DNA of 64,000 nt, taken from Luteolibacter ambystomatis (lineage in GTDB: Bacteria; Verrucomicrobiota; Verrucomicrobiia; Verrucomicrobiales; Akkermansiaceae). The stretch spans positions 1,612,001-1,676,000 of the forward strand of contig NZ_CP073100.1 of assembly GCF_018137965.1 (NCBI RefSeq), written 5' to 3'. Shown here piece by piece: positions 34,813-47,631 of this stretch. The notes under the pieces are model-generated. The model was not told the origin of the DNA. It did no database searches and saw only the letters and a program-made list of their open reading frames with translations. Positions within the stretch are counted from its first letter, which is position 1. Each line of letters begins with the position of its first letter. Both the position numbers and the translations under genes were made by a program.

Positions 34813-36207
34813 TTACAAAACTACCTGCTGGCCTTCATAACGCCCTGCGGACAAGGTTTTTGGCCCTTCTTGACCGCCTTGTATCGAGACGTCGCCCGCG
34901 AAGGCCACTCCGGCCTCGAACGTTACGCGGCCTTGGATGTCCAAGCTCCGGGATTCCAGCAAGCTGGGCACCGCGCCGAGTTCTTCGAGTTGATCCACCA
35001 GCTTGTAGGAATCACCCAGTGAGACCACCGGTGGCACGCCATCGCGTTGTGCCGCAAGCCGGACCTGTCCATCCTCCAACACCTCGTAGGCGTCCGAACG
35101 GAGGGAGAACAAATCCCCCGTCGTCTTCACCGGCGCGAAGCGGCTGCGCGGCACCTCGATGGCCGTGGAGCCCTCAAAGCACTCGATGGCAGCCCCCATG
35201 GCCACTTCCAACTGGAGCACGGCCGGGGAATTCTTGTCGCGCGGATCGACTGTCTTGCGGTTGCGGATCATGGGCAGCGGCAGCACGCCGTCATCCGCCG
35301 CGAGCTGTTCCTTGAGCAGGTCAAGGCGCAGCCACAGGCTGTTGGTGTTGAAATACTGGTGGCGGTCGATGTTCTGGAATGCCTCCAGATCCGCATCCGG
35401 GCACTGGGCGACCTCACGCAGCAACAAACGGCCATCACTCTTGCGCTTCGCCAGATGGCCACCCTTGCGGTCGGCGGCGGTGCGCCGCGTGACTTCCATG
35501 AGGAATGGCGCGCCGCTTTCGGCGAAGTAACGCAGCAGCGATGGGTCGAGAACCGCGCCGAGATTGTCCGAGTTCGACACGAAGGCGTACTTCACGCCTT
35601 CCGCCAGCAGGCGATCCAGCCAGCCGCTGCCCACCAGCGCCGGGAAAAGATCGCCGTGGCCCGGCGGGCACCATTCCAGATCGGCATCCGTGGACCATTC
35701 GACCGGTTGCAGGGAGCCCGCGTCGATCTTCGGGATCTGGTTCTGGAGCAGTTCCACCTCGGAGGCTTCCGCAAAACCATCGGCCTTGTAGCGCTGGAGG
35801 TGCTCCAGAGTGCCCTCGCTGGTGTTGAAGCTGTTCATCAGCAGCAGGCGCACGCGGGCACCGGTGCTCTCGCGCAGCGATTGCACCTGGCGGACCATCA
35901 GGTCGAGGAAAGTCACACCATCGCGCACCGGCAGCAGGCTTTTCGGGCCTTGCAGGCCCATGCTGGTGCCAAGGCCGCCGTTGAGCTTGATGACCACGGC
36001 CTGGCCTAACAGAGAGGCATCCGCCGGAGCGCCTTCGGCCACGTTGGAGAAGTCCGGCAGGTTCTCTGCGGGACCAATGTCGGATTCCGGGATCAAGCCG
36101 GTTTCATTGCGGCAAAGCGCCTCGTAGTTGCGGCGAAATGCACGGATCGCGGCGTCGCCCATGCCGGCGGCGCGCATTTTCTGGTCGAAAGCTTCAAAGG
36201 ATGCCAT
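34813..36207 (-). CDS. UTP-glucose-1-phosphate uridylyltransferase (eukaryotic-type)
   Basis: Makes UDP-glucose from UTP and glucose-1-phosphate for polysaccharide and glycolipid synthesis. 464 residues from 36207 (MASFEAFDQKM; an upstream ATG at 36231 would add 8). The nucleotide-binding motif KLNGGLGTSMGLQGPKSLLP and the length mark the UDPGP type 1 family, typical of eukaryotic UGP2, rather than bacterial GalU (~300 residues). A left-handed beta-helix-like tail is likely in the last ~80 residues. Confidence 0.9.
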   Translation of the reverse strand: MASFEAFDQKMRAAGMGDAAIRAFRRNYEALCRNETGLIPESDIGPAENLPDFSNVAEGAPADASLLGQAVVIKLNGGLGTSMGLQGPKSLLPVRDGVTFLDLMVRQVQSLRESTGARVRLLLMNSFNTSEGTLEHLQRYKADGFAEASEVELLQNQIPKIDAGSLQPVEWSTDADLEWCPPGHGDLFPALVGSGWLDRLLAEGVKYAFVSNSDNLGAVLDPSLLRYFAESGAPFLMEVTRRTAADRKGGHLAKRKSDGRLLLREVAQCPDADLEAFQNIDRHQYFNTNSLWLRLDLLKEQLAADDGVLPLPMIRNRKTVDPRDKNSPAVLQLEVAMGAAIECFEGSTAIEVPRSRFAPVKTTGDLFSLRSDAYEVLEDGQVRLAAQRDGVPPVVSLGDSYKLVDQLEELGAVPSLLESRSLDIQGRVTFEAGVAFAGDVSIQGGQEGPKTLSAGRYEGQQVVL

Positions 36208-36257
36208 GAGTGGATAGTTGGGGTGACCCAACGGTGCCGCGCCGGATTCCGACCGTC

Positions 36258-36277
36258 ACGCCCGAAAATCAGGGCGT
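36258..36277. promoter_or_regulatory. Short hairpin between divergent UGPase and rpoN genes
   Basis: ACGCCC (36258-36263) pairs with GGGCGT (36272-36277), followed by TATAAAAAG. Placed in the divergent promoter region; role not known. Confidence 0.3.
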
Positions 36278-36321
36278 TATAAAAAGCGCAATCCCTTGCC
36301 GTATAAGCAAAAACACGAGCA

Positions 36322-36337
36322 TGGCACGAAATTTGCT
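36322..36337 (+). promoter_or_regulatory. Consensus sigma-54 promoter upstream of rpoN
   Basis: TGGCACGAAATTTGCT matches the -24/-12 consensus TGGCACG-N4-TTGCW at every position, with GG at 36323-36324 and GC at 36335-36336 in the right spacing. Transcription would begin near 36348, about 40 bases before the rpoN ATG and in the same direction. Confidence 0.8.
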
Positions 36338-36387
36338 GCACTTTTCCCAACTGGTGCTTCAATGGCCCTGTCGCCGCGGCGCAGACC

Positions 36388-37788
36388 ATGTCCCAAGCCT
36401 CGCTCCACCAATCCCTCTCCCAGCAGCAGACGCTTGCGCCCCAGATGCGCAAGAGCCTCGAGATCCTGCAGGCGAGCACGCTGGAGTTGACCCAACTGGT
36501 GAGGCAGTCCTTGGAGACGAATCCGGTTTTGGAGGACATCACCGAAGTGGACTCCCTGGATGCCGAGAGTCCCGATCCGGAAGAGGCGGACTCCCTCGAC
36601 TATCTCAACGAGACCGACGATGACTGGCGCGATCGCTCGATCATGGAGGCGCGTTCGTCACCATGGACAAGCGAGGATGAGGAGCGCCGCCAACGCCTTT
36701 ACGATTCCATTGTCGCGCCGGAGACCCTCCAGCAGCACCTCTCCCATCAGCTCGACCTTTCCATGGTCGATCCGGAAGTGCGCGAGGCGGGGCGTGCGGT
36801 GATCGCGAATCTCGATGAACGCGGGTTCCTGGACCTCCCCGCCAAGGAATTGGGAGCGAGAATGAATCTGAAACCGGCGGCGCTGCAGGCGGCGCTGGTG
36901 CTGATCCAGTCGTTCGATCCGCCCGGTGTCGGTGCGGAGAACATCCATCAGTCCCTGCTGATCCAGCTCGAACGGGCCGGCGAAAGCGGCTCCATCGAAT
37001 ACAAGATCGTCCGCGATCATTTGGAGGATCTCGCCCGCAAGCGCTATCCGCAGATCGCACGCGCGCTGGGAACGAACGTGGAACGCATCACCGAAGCCGC
37101 TTCCCGCATCGGCCGTCTGACGCCGAATCCGGGTGGCGAGTTCGACCCCACCGGCAATCCCTACATTCTGCCGGATGTGGTGATCGAGCGTGACGACGAC
37201 GGCGAATGGTCGGCGCGCCTGACGAATGAGTATCTGCCGAATCTGCGGATCAACGATTTCTACAAGGATCTCATCGGCCGCAGCAAGACGGACGGCAAGA
37301 CCCGTCAGTTCCTGCGCGACCAGATCCGCGACGGCCGCAGCCTGATCCGCTCGATCTCCCTGCGTCAGGAAACCATCCTCGCGATCGCCTACAAGCTCAT
37401 CGAGCACCAGCCTGCCTTCCTCGCCAAAGGTCCGCGTCACCTGCGGCCCCTGACCATGAACGACATCGCGGACGAGCTCTCCCTGCACGCCACGACCGTT
37501 TCCCGCGCCGTCGCCGGCAAGTATGTGCTGACTCCGCACGGGCTGATGGAAATGCGCGCCTTCTTCGCCACCGGGTATCAAACCGAAGGCGGGGAAGAAG
37601 TTTCGAATGCCGGAGTCCGCGAGGCGATCCAACAGATTATCGCCCAGGAAAACGCCTCCAAGCCCCTCTCGGATGACGCGCTGGCCAAGCAGCTCAAGAC
37701 CCAGGGCATCAATGTCGCGCGCCGCACGGTGGCGAAGTATCGCGAGCAGTTGAACATCCTGCCCTCGCACCTGCGGAAGTCGTTCTAG
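36388..37788 (+). CDS. rpoN: RNA polymerase sigma-54 factor
   Basis: Alternative sigma factor that needs ATP-driven enhancer-binding activators and recognises -24/-12 promoters. 466 residues. Region I (1-50) starts with the typical SLSQQQTLAPQMRKSLEILQ; an acidic region II lies at ~52-80; the core-binding and DNA-binding domains follow; the RpoN box ARRTVAKYRE is at 444-453. A consensus sigma-54 promoter stands 50 bases upstream, suggesting autoregulation. Confidence 0.97.
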   Translation: MSQASLHQSLSQQQTLAPQMRKSLEILQASTLELTQLVRQSLETNPVLEDITEVDSLDAESPDPEEADSLDYLNETDDDWRDRSIMEARSSPWTSEDEERRQRLYDSIVAPETLQQHLSHQLDLSMVDPEVREAGRAVIANLDERGFLDLPAKELGARMNLKPAALQAALVLIQSFDPPGVGAENIHQSLLIQLERAGESGSIEYKIVRDHLEDLARKRYPQIARALGTNVERITEAASRIGRLTPNPGGEFDPTGNPYILPDVVIERDDDGEWSARLTNEYLPNLRINDFYKDLIGRSKTDGKTRQFLRDQIRDGRSLIRSISLRQETILAIAYKLIEHQPAFLAKGPRHLRPLTMNDIADELSLHATTVSRAVAGKYVLTPHGLMEMRAFFATGYQTEGGEEVSNAGVREAIQQIIAQENASKPLSDDALAKQLKTQGINVARRTVAKYREQLNILPSHLRKSF

Positions 37789-42222: not shown

Positions 42223-45200
42223 ATGAAGCCCCGAACGTTCCTATCCCCCCTCGCGATTGTTTTCGCCGCCACCACCTTCTCCGTCAACGCCCAGTTGCTG
42301 CTGACGGAAATCCAGTCGGACGGACTCTCCGACTATTGGGAACTCACCAACACCGGTGCTTCCGCGGTCGACCTGAGCAACTGGAAGTGGGACGACGACA
42401 GCCAAAACCCGAATGACGCGGCCGCGGTGACCATCCCGAGCGGCACCAGCATTGCCGCCGGGGAATCGATCATCTTCACATCCGCCGCCAACGCGAATAC
42501 TTTCCGTACCCAGTGGGGTCTTTCCAATTCGGTGCAGGTCATCACCGGCGGCCCGGGCTTCGGCCAGGACGACGGCGTGGCGTTGTTCAATGCTTCCAAC
42601 GTGAAGCAGTTCTATTTCACTTACGCTTCCGGCGGCTTCACCCGTCCGGACGGTAGTTCCTCCACCGGTGGCCATGCCGGGATCTCGGCGGGCGGCACTG
42701 CCGCCAAGGCCTTGGTTTGGAATCCGGCCTCTGGCACTTCCTCGCCACGCTACACCTACGCTACCGGCACCACGCTGGGAACGTTCACGGCCCCCGGCGG
42801 TTCCACCAACATCGGCTCTCCGGGTTTCAGCGGTTACACCACCGGCGGCGGCCCGCAGATCACGCTGTCCCTCAGCGCCACCAGCACCACCTTCTCTGAA
42901 AGCGCGTCAAATCCCGCGTCCACCGGCACGGTCACCCGTGCGCTGGCCACACCGGATGCGCTGGTCGTCAATCTGACCAGCAGCGACACCACGGAAGCCA
43001 CCGTGCCTGCGACGGTGACCATCCCCGCCAATCAGACTTCGGTCACCTTTCCGATCACCGCGGTCAACGACACCTTCCCCGATGGCGGCAAGACGGCGAT
43101 CATCACCGCCACCGCAACCGATGCGACGAGCCCGACCCTGAGCCTCACGGTGCAGGACGATGGTGACACGCTCGACACCGCCTTCCTGCTCACCGAGATC
43201 CAGTCGAACCAGTCCGCCAACAAGCCCTCCGGCGCGGATGACTACTGGGAACTCACCAACACCAGCGCGGTCTCCCGCGATATCAGCGGCTACAGTTGGC
43301 ACGACAACGGTCGCTCCGGTGCTGCGGCCCAAGCCTACAAGTTGCCATCCGGCACCACCATCGCCGCAGGCGAATCGGTGGTCTTCACCTCCATGGCTCC
43401 CGCCGCCTTCCGTGCCTGGTGGGGCATCCCGAACACCGTTCAGGTATTCCAGTCCATCGGCGCTCCCGGCCTTGGCAAGGACGACGGCATCTCGTTCTTC
43501 GATCCGGGTCAGAACGAATTGTTCTTCTTCAGCTACGCCGCCGCGGGCTTCACCAAGGCAGACGGCAATCCGTCCGTGGGTGGTCATGCAGGAGCGTCCG
43601 CTGGTGGCTCCGCCGACTCGCAGGCGCTCGTGTGGGTGCCCACCTCCGGCACCGCCAGTCCGCGCTACACGTTTGCAACCGGATCGAACTACGCGACCTT
43701 CAGCGCGGTTTCCCCTGCCACCGATCTTGGCTCGCCGGGTTCGCAGGGTGTGGTGACAGAGAACGTCGCCATCGCCGATGCCTCCATCACCGAAGGCAAC
43801 AGCGGCACCAGCACCGTCTCGCTGAATGTCACCCGCTCCAGTACCTCCACCGCTTTCACGGTGAACTACGCGGTGACCGGCGGCACCGCCACCACGGGCA
43901 ACGACTACGCCACGCTGGCGTCTGGCACACTGACCTTCACCAACGGCGGCGCGGCCACCCAGCCGATCCAGATCCAGGTCAATGGCGATACCACTCCGGA
44001 ACCGGACGAAACCATCATCGTGACGCTTTCCAACGTCGTCAACACGACGGGCACCACGGTGCTGGCGAACTCGGTTGGCACCGCCACGATCATCAACGAT
44101 GATCAGATCCTTCCGGCCATCACCACCCAGCCGGTCGGCACCACCGTCGCAAGCGGCTCCACCACCACCCTCACGGTGGCTGCCAGCGGTTTCCCTGCTC
44201 CGACGTTCCAGTGGTATATCGGCAACAGCGGCGATACCAGCCAGCCGATTTCCGGAGCCACCAGCGCGACGCTGGTGACGCCGGCCATCAATGCCAACAC
44301 CCGCTTCTGGGCGCGTGCCACGAATTCCGCCGGTTCCGCGGACAGTTCCGCCGCTCTGGTCACCATCGTTTCCGGTGTGACGTCCATCGATCTCTCCAGC
44401 TATGTCCGCGTGGCCCGCTATGCGCTGCCGGAGCCGATCCTCACAGCGCTTCCCGCTGGCACGCCATCCTCCAATTATCTCTGCCAGGAAGCCTCCGGCG
44501 TGACCTACAACTGGGACACCGACACCTTGTTCATCGTCGGTGACGGCGGCCGCTCGGTCACCCAGGTTTCGAAGACCGGCGTGTTGATCGACACGATGAC
44601 ACTCGCACTCGGCGGCAGCCCGCAGGGCACCGAGTTCTACGATACGGAAGGCATCACCTACCTCGGCAATGGTGAGTTCGCCTTCACGGAAGAACGCGAT
44701 CGCCAGATCGTGAAGTTCACCTACGCGGCCGGCACCACGCTCACGCGTTCGGCGACCAAGACGGTGAAGCTCGGCACCTTCGTCAACAACACCGGCCTCG
44801 AAGGCTTCTCCTGGGATCCGCAGACCGGCGGCTTCATCATCGTGAAGGAGATCAGCCCGATGGGCATCTTCCAGACCGGCATCGACTTCAATGCGGGCAC
44901 GGCCACCAACGGCTCGCCGACCACGATCAACTCCACCGACCTCTTCGATCCGAATCTGCTCGGTATGTCCGACTTCGCGGATGTGTTCGCGCTTTCGAAT
45001 CTGCCGTCCGTGACCGGGCACCCGCAAGCAGGCAATCTGCTCGTCCTGAGCCAGGAGTCGGCGCGCATCGTGAACACCGACCGCTCGGGCAACATCACCA
45101 GTTCGCTCCAGATCGTCGCCGATTCCGGCGACACGCTCTCGGTGGCGGACATGCAGCATGAAGGCCTGACCATGGACCGCGCGGGCAATCTTTACGTGGT

Positions 45201-47631
45201 CAATGAAAACGGTGGCGGCAACATCGACCATCCGCAACTCTGGGTCTATGCTCCTTCCTCCGCGCCGAACCAGGCTCCAACCGCCGTGGCGGTGAGCAAT
45301 CCGGTGAATACGATCGCGGAGAACACCACCACTGCTTCCGCCATCAAGGTCGGTGACATCGTGGTGACGGACGATGGCAAGGGCACCAACGTCCTTACGC
45401 TTGTCGGCACGGATGCGGCGTTCTTCGAGATCACCAATTCCAGCCTCTATCTCAAGGCAGGCACCGTTCTCGATTTCGAAACCAAGAGCAGCTACAACGT
45501 CACGGTCCAGGTGGACGACGCGACACTCGGCAACACGCCGGATGCCAGCACCACCTTCACCCTGACGGTCACGGATGTGGTGAATGAAGGCTCGGGTTCG
45601 TCCTCCGTTTTCATCTCGGAAGTCAATCCGACCGGCAGCAGCAACGGTACCTACAATGCCGACTGGTTCGAGGTGACCAACGCCGGCACCACCGATCTCG
45701 ACATCACCGGTTGGAAGATGGATGACAACTCCAACGGAACCAACACCTCCGACCGGGTCGCGCTCCGCGGCGTCACCACCATTCCCGCAGGCAAATCGGC
45801 GATCTTCTTCGAAGGAGCCGCCGATGGTTCCACGGATGCCACCATCCTCGCCAACTTCTGCACCGCTTGGTTCGGCACTTCCACGCCTCCGGCGGGTGTC
45901 CTCATCGGTGCCTATGGCGGTGGCAGCGTCGGACTCAGTTCCGGCGGCGATGCGGTGAATCTCTTCGATGCCGCTGGCAACCGCGTGACCGGAGTCGCCT
46001 TTGGCGCGGCCACCACCAACGTGACCTTCGATAACAAGGCAGGTCTTGGCAGCGCCACGCTTCCGCTGCCGATGGTCACCACCAAGAGCACCAACGGTGT
46101 GAATGGCGCCTTTGTCTCCTCCAATGGTGCGGAGACCGGTTCCCCGGCCGCCACCGGCCGGGTCTTCATCTCGGAAGTCAATCCGACCGGTAGCAGCAAC
46201 GGCACCTACAACGCCGACTGGTTTGAGATCACCAATGCCACCGCTGTTCCACTCAATCTCACCGGCTGGAAGATGGATGACAACTCCAACGGAACCAACA
46301 CCTCCGACCGGGTCGCACTCCGCGGCGTCACCACCATTCCCGCAGGCAAATCGGCGATCTTCTTCGAAGGAGCCGCCGATGGTTCCACGGATGCCACCAT
46401 CCTCGCCAACTTCTGCACCGCTTGGTTCGGCACTTCCACGCCTCCGGCGGGTGTCCTCATCGGTGCCTATGGCGGTGGCAGCGTCGGACTCAGTTCCGGC
46501 GGCGATGCGGTGAATCTCTTCGACGCTGCAGGCAACCGAGTGACCGGTGTCGCCTTTGGCGCGGCCACCACCAACGTCACCTTCGACAACAAGGCAGGTA
46601 TCGGCAGCGCCACGCTTCCGCTGCCGATGATCACGATCAAGAGCGCCAACGGCGTGAATGGCGCCTTTGTCTCCTCCAATGGTGCGGAGACTGGCTCCCC
46701 CGGCATTACCGGACGCGTGGTGGTGACTGAGGTCGCCCCTTGGTCCAGCAGCACCTCTGTGGGTGCCGATTGGTTCGAAGTGATGAACACCTCCGCGGTG
46801 ACCGTCGATCTCACCGGCTGGAAGATGGATGACAACACGGAATCTCCCGTGGCTGCGGTCGCGCTCAATGGAGTGACCACCTTGGAGCCCGGCGAACGTG
46901 CGGTCTTCCTGGAAACCTCCACGCCCTCCACCACCATTCCGGCCTTCCTCACCAACTGGTTCGGTGCGAATCCGCCTGCCAGCCTCAAAGTCGGCAGCTA
47001 CGCCGGTGACGGCGTGGGCCTGAGCACGGGTGGCGATGCGGTGAACCTTTACAACAGCAATGGTGTCCGCCAGTCCGGTGTCTCCTTCGGTGCCGCTCCC
47101 AGCAACCCTCTCGCCACCTTTGAGAACGCGACGGGCACGCCCTTCGTTGCCCTCTCCCAGCTCAGCGTGCCGGGCATCAATGGTGCCTTCGTTGCGAAGA
47201 ACTCCGCCGACCAGATCGGTTCTCCGGGGGCGGTCGCCAGCAGCGGGCCGCTCGACTTCAACCTGTGGCTCAGCGCCAACAACCTGAGCTCCACCGGTTT
47301 CGGTTCCGACAGCAACGGCAATGGGTTCAAGGACGGTGTGGAGTTCTTCTTCAACGTGAAGAAGCCCGGCGACATCAAGAATCTGCCGAAGCTCACCAGC
47401 TTGGGCGGAGACAAACTGTTGTCGTTCACGACCCTCAACGGAATCTCTGGTGTGACCGGTGTGCTTGAACATTCCGACGACCTCGGCGTGGCCGACGCGT
47501 GGACTTCCGCTGCCGCCGGAACCGACTACGAAGTGGTGACCACCACCAGCGCCAACGGCCAGACCACGACCACGCTGCGCCTGCTGGGCAACGCTTCCAG
47601 CAAGTTCTGGCGCTATCGTGTGACCCAATAA
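42223..47631 (+). CDS. Giant secreted lamin-tail / Calx-beta / SdiA-regulated-like protein
   Basis: A 1802-residue exported protein. A signal peptide (~1-23) is followed by lamin-tail domain 1 (~25-205, LLLTEIQSDGLSDYWELTNTG), a Calx-beta-like domain (~213-312), lamin-tail 2 (~320-505), Calx-beta 2 (~512-628), an Ig-like domain (~632-720), an SdiA-regulated/phytase-like beta-propeller (~725-1015, EASGVTYNWDTDTLFIVGDG), a cadherin-like domain (~1022-1125), and three more lamin-tail domains (~1128-1670). The C-terminal region is DSNGNGFKDGVEFFFN plus a beta domain, a type often seen at the ends of Verrucomicrobia secreted proteins. Lamin-tail 3 and 4 are nearly identical in DNA (555-base unit). 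Probably cell-surface or extracellular; adhesion or phosphate-ester work are guesses. A strong terminator follows. Confidence 0.9.
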   Translation: MKPRTFLSPLAIVFAATTFSVNAQLLLTEIQSDGLSDYWELTNTGASAVDLSNWKWDDDSQNPNDAAAVTIPSGTSIAAGESIIFTSAANANTFRTQWGLSNSVQVITGGPGFGQDDGVALFNASNVKQFYFTYASGGFTRPDGSSSTGGHAGISAGGTAAKALVWNPASGTSSPRYTYATGTTLGTFTAPGGSTNIGSPGFSGYTTGGGPQITLSLSATSTTFSESASNPASTGTVTRALATPDALVVNLTSSDTTEATVPATVTIPANQTSVTFPITAVNDTFPDGGKTAIITATATDATSPTLSLTVQDDGDTLDTAFLLTEIQSNQSANKPSGADDYWELTNTSAVSRDISGYSWHDNGRSGAAAQAYKLPSGTTIAAGESVVFTSMAPAAFRAWWGIPNTVQVFQSIGAPGLGKDDGISFFDPGQNELFFFSYAAAGFTKADGNPSVGGHAGASAGGSADSQALVWVPTSGTASPRYTFATGSNYATFSAVSPATDLGSPGSQGVVTENVAIADASITEGNSGTSTVSLNVTRSSTSTAFTVNYAVTGGTATTGNDYATLASGTLTFTNGGAATQPIQIQVNGDTTPEPDETIIVTLSNVVNTTGTTVLANSVGTATIINDDQILPAITTQPVGTTVASGSTTTLTVAASGFPAPTFQWYIGNSGDTSQPISGATSATLVTPAINANTRFWARATNSAGSADSSAALVTIVSGVTSIDLSSYVRVARYALPEPILTALPAGTPSSNYLCQEASGVTYNWDTDTLFIVGDGGRSVTQVSKTGVLIDTMTLALGGSPQGTEFYDTEGITYLGNGEFAFTEERDRQIVKFTYAAGTTLTRSATKTVKLGTFVNNTGLEGFSWDPQTGGFIIVKEISPMGIFQTGIDFNAGTATNGSPTTINSTDLFDPNLLGMSDFADVFALSNLPSVTGHPQAGNLLVLSQESARIVNTDRSGNITSSLQIVADSGDTLSVADMQHEGLTMDRAGNLYVVNENGGGNIDHPQLWVYAPSSAPNQAPTAVAVSNPVNTIAENTTTASAIKVGDIVVTDDGKGTNVLTLVGTDAAFFEITNSSLYLKAGTVLDFETKSSYNVTVQVDDATLGNTPDASTTFTLTVTDVVNEGSGSSSVFISEVNPTGSSNGTYNADWFEVTNAGTTDLDITGWKMDDNSNGTNTSDRVALRGVTTIPAGKSAIFFEGAADGSTDATILANFCTAWFGTSTPPAGVLIGAYGGGSVGLSSGGDAVNLFDAAGNRVTGVAFGAATTNVTFDNKAGLGSATLPLPMVTTKSTNGVNGAFVSSNGAETGSPAATGRVFISEVNPTGSSNGTYNADWFEITNATAVPLNLTGWKMDDNSNGTNTSDRVALRGVTTIPAGKSAIFFEGAADGSTDATILANFCTAWFGTSTPPAGVLIGAYGGGSVGLSSGGDAVNLFDAAGNRVTGVAFGAATTNVTFDNKAGIGSATLPLPMITIKSANGVNGAFVSSNGAETGSPGITGRVVVTEVAPWSSSTSVGADWFEVMNTSAVTVDLTGWKMDDNTESPVAAVALNGVTTLEPGERAVFLETSTPSTTIPAFLTNWFGANPPASLKVGSYAGDGVGLSTGGDAVNLYNSNGVRQSGVSFGAAPSNPLATFENATGTPFVALSQLSVPGINGAFVAKNSADQIGSPGAVASSGPLDFNLWLSANNLSSTGFGSDSNGNGFKDGVEFFFNVKKPGDIKNLPKLTSLGGDKLLSFTTLNGISGVTGVLEHSDDLGVADAWTSAAAGTDYEVVTTTSANGQTTTTLRLLGNASSKFWRYRVTQ
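45608..46717 (+). repeat. Two-copy tandem repeat of 555 bases inside the giant gene
   Basis: The stretch from ~45608 recurs from ~46163 with a constant offset of 555 bases (185 codons), for example ATGGATGACAACTCC at 45718 and 46273. Long blocks (45718-45955 against 46273-46510) are nearly identical even at silent positions, while the ends diverge. This implies a recent duplication or gene conversion of a lamin-tail domain. Confidence 0.9.

Follow-up and report, generated by a model that had tools for sequence, protein, structure and literature searches.

A well-conserved and probably functional sigma-54 promoter directly upstream of the rpoN gene of Luteolibacter ambystomatis

The rpoN gene of Luteolibacter ambystomatis is preceded by a well-conserved sigma-54 site that is probably a functional promoter of rpoN itself, and our overall reading, held with somewhat better than even confidence, is that sigma-54 autoregulation is layered upon a basal sigma-70 supply. 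The window analyzed here is a 64,000-nucleotide stretch of the genome (contig NZ_CP073100.1). Its rpoN (36388-37788, + strand) encodes a protein of 466 aa in which the Pfam AID, CBD and DBD families (PF00309, PF04963 and PF04552) each score above cut-off, and it is the one sigma-54 gene found in the 5.32-Mb genome. The upstream neighbor is a divergent gene for a UDPGP-family uridylyltransferase (34813-36207, - strand; PF01704, E 7.5e-125); neither a prxS-type upstream gene nor a second rpoN copy was found, and no Rfam family matches positions 36150-36600 at E values up to 1. Further downstream in the window, positions 42223-47631 hold an open frame of 1802 aa that begins in a signal-like manner and contains long internal repeats, nearly identical to one another.

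The sigma-54 promoter core, P1 (TGGCACGAAATTTGCT), occupies positions 36322-36337 of the + strand, with its -24 GG at 36323-36324 and its -12 GC at 36335-36336, 10 nt apart. It matches the consensus TGGCACG-N4-TTGCW at 12 of 12 fixed positions, and its start and end lie 66 and 50 nt upstream of the rpoN ATG. From the geometry of sigma-54 promoters, transcription is predicted to start at 36348 (+ strand), 12 nt past the C of the -12 GC, giving a leader of about 40 nt. The first-pass annotation had described a site that agrees with every fixed position and the spacing of the -24/-12 consensus, points toward rpoN and yields a leader of roughly 40 bases; each of these descriptions is borne out, the second by the shared strand and by the three sigma-54 domains that confirm the gene. 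P1 is the one exact consensus match on either strand of the 64-kb window, compared to a mean of 0.01 in 100 dinucleotide-preserving shuffles of the window. When up to two mismatches are allowed, the window holds 12 matches versus 12.05 expected by chance, and it is therefore the exact match and its conservation that carry the evidence. Together they indicate that P1 is almost certainly a real sigma-54 promoter.

Conservation was assessed in 110 rpoN loci, 30 from a genome search and 80 from genome contigs, a collection biased to close relatives in which 17 loci repeat an upstream sequence already counted, leaving 93 distinct sequences. All 110 loci possess a GG-N10-GC site that matches 9-12 of the 12 fixed positions and begins 53-84 nt ahead of the rpoN ORF, where the rule for picking sites demanded GG and GC and left the remaining letters free. 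Dinucleotide shuffles of the 93 upstream sequences attained 9/12 at the corresponding position 55 times in 1860, versus 93/93 for the real sequences, and the reverse strand of the same stretch carries a 9/12 site in 1/93. Across the 74 distinct sequences whose RpoN identity exceeds 65%, TGGCA and TGC are invariant, which adds T, C, A and T to the letters fixed by the picking rule, and T-rich sequence following the GC is also kept. The flanks have diverged, with columns from -60 to about -20 upstream of the site near random in the same 74 relatives. An alignment (A1) in which rows L003 and L006 are out of register was left unused.

To this we add a wider sample drawn from 195 evenly drawn genomes of the window's family, read with a uniform rule (a score of 9/12 or better, no more than 250 nt from the estimated rpoN start) and with one genome matched to locus L108 through its coordinates. 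Outside two reduced genera, g3 and g5, such a site is present in 135 of 137 readable genomes (one of the 138 non-reduced upstreams reads N and was left out), within 140 nt in 130 of them and 160-217 nt upstream in 5, and the remaining two genomes have 8/12 matches with both GG and GC. Within the reduced genera, the first of which we take to be Akkermansia, the same rule finds a site in 1 of 25 genomes (23 g3 and 2 g5, one g3 genome providing just 75 nt of upstream sequence), and a single hit of this kind, TGGCCCCATTATAGCA, is close to what chance would give. Sites of the form [TC]GG[CT]-N8-TGCT occur in 136/137 genomes outside the reduced genera and in 0/25 inside them, while relaxing the threshold to 8/12 returns 137/137 and 9/25, respectively. 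Three g3 genomes (L222, L223 and L224) have the sequence AGGCACATTGTGTGCG, an 8/12 match at the usual place, 66 nt before rpoN, which is perhaps a relic or decayed sigma-54 site.

Beyond the family, where rpoN starts are estimates, the site recurs in several lineages. Family f2 of the same order has a 9-12/12 site 59-70 nt before the start in 6/6 genomes (L136-L139, L142 and L143), both genomes of f6 have a 9/12 site (of CGGC type) some 52-55 nt ahead of rpoN, f11 has a 10/12 site about 55 nt upstream of where the gene is expected to begin, two genomes of f4 have 9-10/12 about 40 nt before the estimated start, and f5 has a 9/12 match in one genome of three (G211), some 56 nt ahead of the estimated start, the other two having none. 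No 9/12 match was found at promoter distance in f3 (two genomes) or in f8, f9, f10, f12 and f13 (one genome each), where the additional matches are intragenic or hundreds of bases distant. Whether close relatives keep the GG and GC elements was a check proposed by the first-pass annotation; the comparison places them throughout the family, apart from two genera, as well as in the second family f2.

A second feature of the leader is a candidate sigma-70-type -10 hexamer, P2 (TTCAAT, 36358-36363, + strand), which lies about 22 nt past the -12 GC and near a position at which relatives conserve TANNNT. A start from P2 would fall at about 36370. TANNNT begins 36-39 nt after the start of the site in 41 of 74 relatives (mean 4.1 and maximum 11 in 500 shuffles) and, once the set is thinned, in 35 of 60; TA begins 37-39 nt past the site's first base in 56/74, and of the 58 sequences with TA at 35-43, 42 have a further T five bases beyond the T of this TA. 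Such a TANNNT at a fixed offset is the signature of a putative sigma-70 -10 element. The hexamer of the window is itself not TANNNT and agrees with TATAAT at 4/6 positions, and no good -35 element is recognizable for P2, a strict sigma-70 scan of the window being negative. A CA at positions 17-18 counted from the start of the site, found in 38/74 close and 4/19 far sequences, is perhaps a -35 trace. The 19 more distant sequences show no concentration of the hexamer at this place. An AT-rich block 7-15 nt upstream of P1 (36307-36315), present at the same place (-15 to -7 from the site) in the 74 relatives, resembles TATAAT in 32/74 versus 30/74 at the P2 place, and contains TANNNT in 19/74. Three other AT-rich places reach 25-26 of 74, and the immediate neighbors of P2 are low. 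The block is possibly an UP-like element, a second sigma-70 -10 or a promoter element of the divergent gene. As equally TATAAT-like AT-rich stretches exist elsewhere, our confidence in P2 is lowered, and we regard the question of whether it is real in this clade as evenly balanced.

The predicted P2 start coincides with a hairpin, CTGTCGCCGCGGCGCAG (36368-36384, + strand), located directly before the rpoN start codon in a leader whose own fold energy is -7.5 kcal/mol. Watson-Crick stems of at least 5 pairs occur in the last 26 nt of 35/74 relatives versus 7.3 expected and comprise 30 distinct stem sequences, such that the sequence of the stem varies among relatives while its complementarity is kept. 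Since these stems were picked by complementarity, the evidence is their excess over shuffles. The mean leader fold energy is -8.27, compared to -4.83 in dinucleotide shuffles, and it is lower than the shuffles in 65/74 sequences. Neither three control stretches nor the 19 distant sequences show a stem excess, and no obvious Shine-Dalgarno sequence is visible by eye at the hairpin.

These elements suggest the following mechanism. Sigma-54 RNA polymerase would bind at 36322-36337 and, upon remodeling by an enhancer-binding protein (bEBP), would initiate at about 36348, so that rpoN output would partly depend on sigma-54 itself. As the search yielded a single rpoN, some sigma-54 must come from a basal source that does not itself require sigma-54, and P2 with its conserved -10-like hexamer would be the best candidate for it. 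The polymerases of P1 and P2 would not occupy the region together. Sigma-54 would thus hold down its own basal promoter while the activator is silent and raise its own level once the activator is active, leaving the activator to set the sign of the feedback. Net autoactivation of rpoN under some condition appears likely from the promoter architecture. The positive feedback loop put forward by the first-pass annotation is accordingly upheld in part: the site is conserved and the genome encodes bEBPs, but sigma-54 could also repress a basal promoter while the activator is silent, a P2-like -10 lying within reach of the polymerase.

Four strong PF00158 matches (174-253 bits) represent the bEBPs of this genome, namely EBP1 (receiver and AAA domains), EBP2 (NtrC type, beside a histidine kinase gene), EBP3 (NtrC type) and RtcR; five weak matches (21-34 bits) belong to a type seen in all 14 control genomes as well. 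Of the 195 family genomes, 147 have an EBP1 orthologue; those without one are all 40 g3 genomes, both g5 genomes and six drafts. When tabulated against the site, whose status covers all but 32 of the 195 genomes (15 with EBP1 and 17 without), both are present in 131 and both absent in 25, one of the latter having the 9/12 TGGCCCCATTATAGCA match; the site occurs without detected EBP1 in six draft genomes that are 70-93% complete, and one genome with EBP1 has an unreadable upstream. G015 and G052, each of which yields only two strong bEBP hits, have EBP1, EBP2 and the site. In five g3 genomes that were sampled, EBP2 is retained (57-67% identity) and EBP1 is missing, as is the site where examined. 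In a tree read with support values left aside, the EBP1 proteins of f1 and f2 fall together with f11 and f14 proteins; f1, f2 and f11 carry the site, and the rpoN contig of f14 is truncated.

Observations in other families count against the link. Both f6 genomes have the site, though f6 has no EBP1 orthologue (best 42% identity, or none at 1e-90), f4 has the site without an EBP1 orthologue above 48% identity, and EBP1-like proteins of 45-48% identity occur in genomes without a good site. The f6 loci L209 (G206) and L210 (G345) have another bEBP gene on the rpoN strand, no more than about 1-1.5 kb upstream of rpoN. One or two losses may be all that underlies the EBP1/site link, and those in g3 and g5 may be a single event. 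With confidence lowered by the f6 sites that lack an EBP1 orthologue, we tentatively name EBP1 the likeliest single candidate for the activator of P1, its prospects falling somewhat short of even.

The sequence of EBP1 bears on how it might act. Its phospho-Asp column reads Ala in the protein of this genome and in G036 and G090, Ser in G051, Glu in 5/6 f2 genomes (Asp in G406) and in f11, and Asp in G048, G052, G015, G073 and f14. Pfam HTH_8 is matched by EBP2 and EBP3 and finds no match in this EBP1 at E 0.001, and the G052 protein stops short of the HTH_8 region, pointing to erosion of the DNA-binding end in relatives. Given a receiver without the phospho-Asp and a weakened DNA-binding end, it is plausible that EBP1 can act unphosphorylated and with no fixed enhancer; an NtrC-type EBP1 needing neither phosphorylation nor a specific enhancer would then remodel P1. 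No enhancer motif was found: in the 74 sequences, no column from 60 to about 20 nt ahead of the site is conserved, and inverted repeats are only weak. The NifA site is TGT-N10-ACA, and a NifA-type enhancer before rpoN was rejected, as the stretch between the UDPGP gene and rpoN contains no such sequence. Among the neighbors of the EBP1 gene in nine genomes, none is common to more than three, and no exact sigma-54 site was found there.

Three other explanations can be weighed against this reading. EBP2 could activate P1 instead, placing rpoN in a nitrogen regulon with the PII gene and amtB, an arrangement we consider possible, if on balance doubtful. EBP2 has a receiver with the Asp and a Fis domain, and its orthologues occur in 14 classified f1/f2 genomes, where the classification in G252 covers two of eight hits and does not establish an orthologue. 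The genome also has an exact-pattern site 37 nt before its PII gene (L128; family confirmed by a family search) and further exact-pattern sites near an ammonium-transporter-like gene and an adjoining porin-like gene (L129, L130 and L216), both named from their translations. In genome-wide counts, which rest on a pattern search, TGGCAYRN5TGCW occurs at 12 sites versus 18 for the reversed control; being no commoner than its control, this pattern was rejected as a definition of a regulon, and the sites at the nitrogen genes draw their support from context alone. The retention of EBP2 in the five Akkermansia-like genomes argues against it as the activator, as the site in its full form is absent from every Akkermansia-like genome examined, and the spacers also differ, being AT-rich at the rpoN sites of relatives and GC-rich at the nitrogen-gene sites here.

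A different alternative concerns the sign of regulation. Under pure negative autoregulation, sigma-54 polymerase bound at the -24/-12 site would chiefly obstruct an rpoN promoter of the sigma-70 type and rarely initiate, as might be suggested by the conserved -10-like hexamer adjoining the site, by glmY, whose sigma-70 promoter is repressed by sigma-54 binding according to the available passages of PMC7073468, and by the negatively autoregulated rpoN of Rhizobium leguminosarum mentioned in an excerpt of PMC3538637. We consider this unlikely, as the site retains the full form of a promoter, including the T-rich sequence after GC, and persists in the 19 distant sequences that lack a concentration of the hexamer. 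That P1 is a chance match or a functionless relic has a negligible probability. The near-matches in the window, with up to two mismatches, do occur only at their chance number, but the expectation for an exact match is 0.01 per window and 110/110 loci keep the site amid diverged flanks, a degree of conservation by which a chance origin was rejected.

Returning to sigma-54 autoregulation upon a basal sigma-70 supply, a more elaborate version can be formulated, which we think improbable as a whole. Here, EBP1 would be a dedicated, phosphorylation- and enhancer-independent protein that tunes the sigma-54 level via the rpoN promoter, the overlapping sigma-70 start would act as a sign switch, short sigma-70 transcripts beginning at the hairpin would be translated differently from the longer sigma-54 ones, and Akkermansia would have dropped promoter and activator together on becoming host-bound. 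More generally, a sole rpoN under its own sigma factor, kept family-wide and missing along with one candidate activator in Akkermansia-like genomes, constitutes a compact natural experiment, with one promoter, one protein and one lineage named for testing positive versus negative self-control. To our knowledge, the setting of the sigma-54 level has been little studied outside the proteobacteria.

The papers compared here were available as excerpts, and the comparisons relate to the passages concerned. A 2025 study (PMC12316311) finds rpoN enriched among genes with sigma-54 promoters in Verrucomicrobiia and other classes, "implying autoregulation", and the broad claim of rpoN autoregulation for the class is therefore already in print. 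Besides this study, we found no title on rpoN regulation or start-site mapping in Verrucomicrobiales in a literature largely without subscription journals. A Geobacter paper (PMC2725144) has no word starting with "autoregul" in the places shown. The first-pass annotation had called self-dependence of rpoN unusual, which is too strong given the sigma-54-driven rpoN2 of rhizobia (PMC3538637) and this class-level inference (PMC12316311).

Our reading shares with the regulons of PMC12316311 the inference that rpoN is autoregulated through a sigma-54 promoter; that work provides class-level enrichment, to which the individual site, its order-wide conservation, a candidate activator and the Akkermansia loss are added here. 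In the prxS-rpoN2 operon of Rhizobium etli and Mesorhizobium loti, rpoN2 is read from a sigma-54 promoter with the bEBP NifA, and the authors' model has the RpoN2 level raised in this way, with some basal supply required (PMC3538637). The likeness lies in an rpoN gene with a sigma-54 promoter. In contrast to that second, symbiotic copy in a NifA-activated operon, one rpoN was found here with the promoter directly before it, and the intergenic stretch has no NifA-type TGT-N10-ACA. R. leguminosarum offers a further case of self-control, of opposite sign, its rpoN being under negative autoregulation according to PMC3538637. Repression of an overlapping sigma-70 promoter by sigma-54 binding is stated as a precedent in PMC4591121 and is described for E. 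coli glmY, where the sigma-54 site overlaps a weaker sigma-70 promoter (PMC7073468). Like glmY, rpoN of L. ambystomatis has a sigma-54 site with a nearby candidate sigma-70 start, but the glmY promoters are "perfectly overlapping" according to the title of a cited reference, whereas the -10-like hexamer here lies about 22 nt past the -12 GC, and, unlike glmY (PMC7073468), the gene encodes sigma-54 itself.
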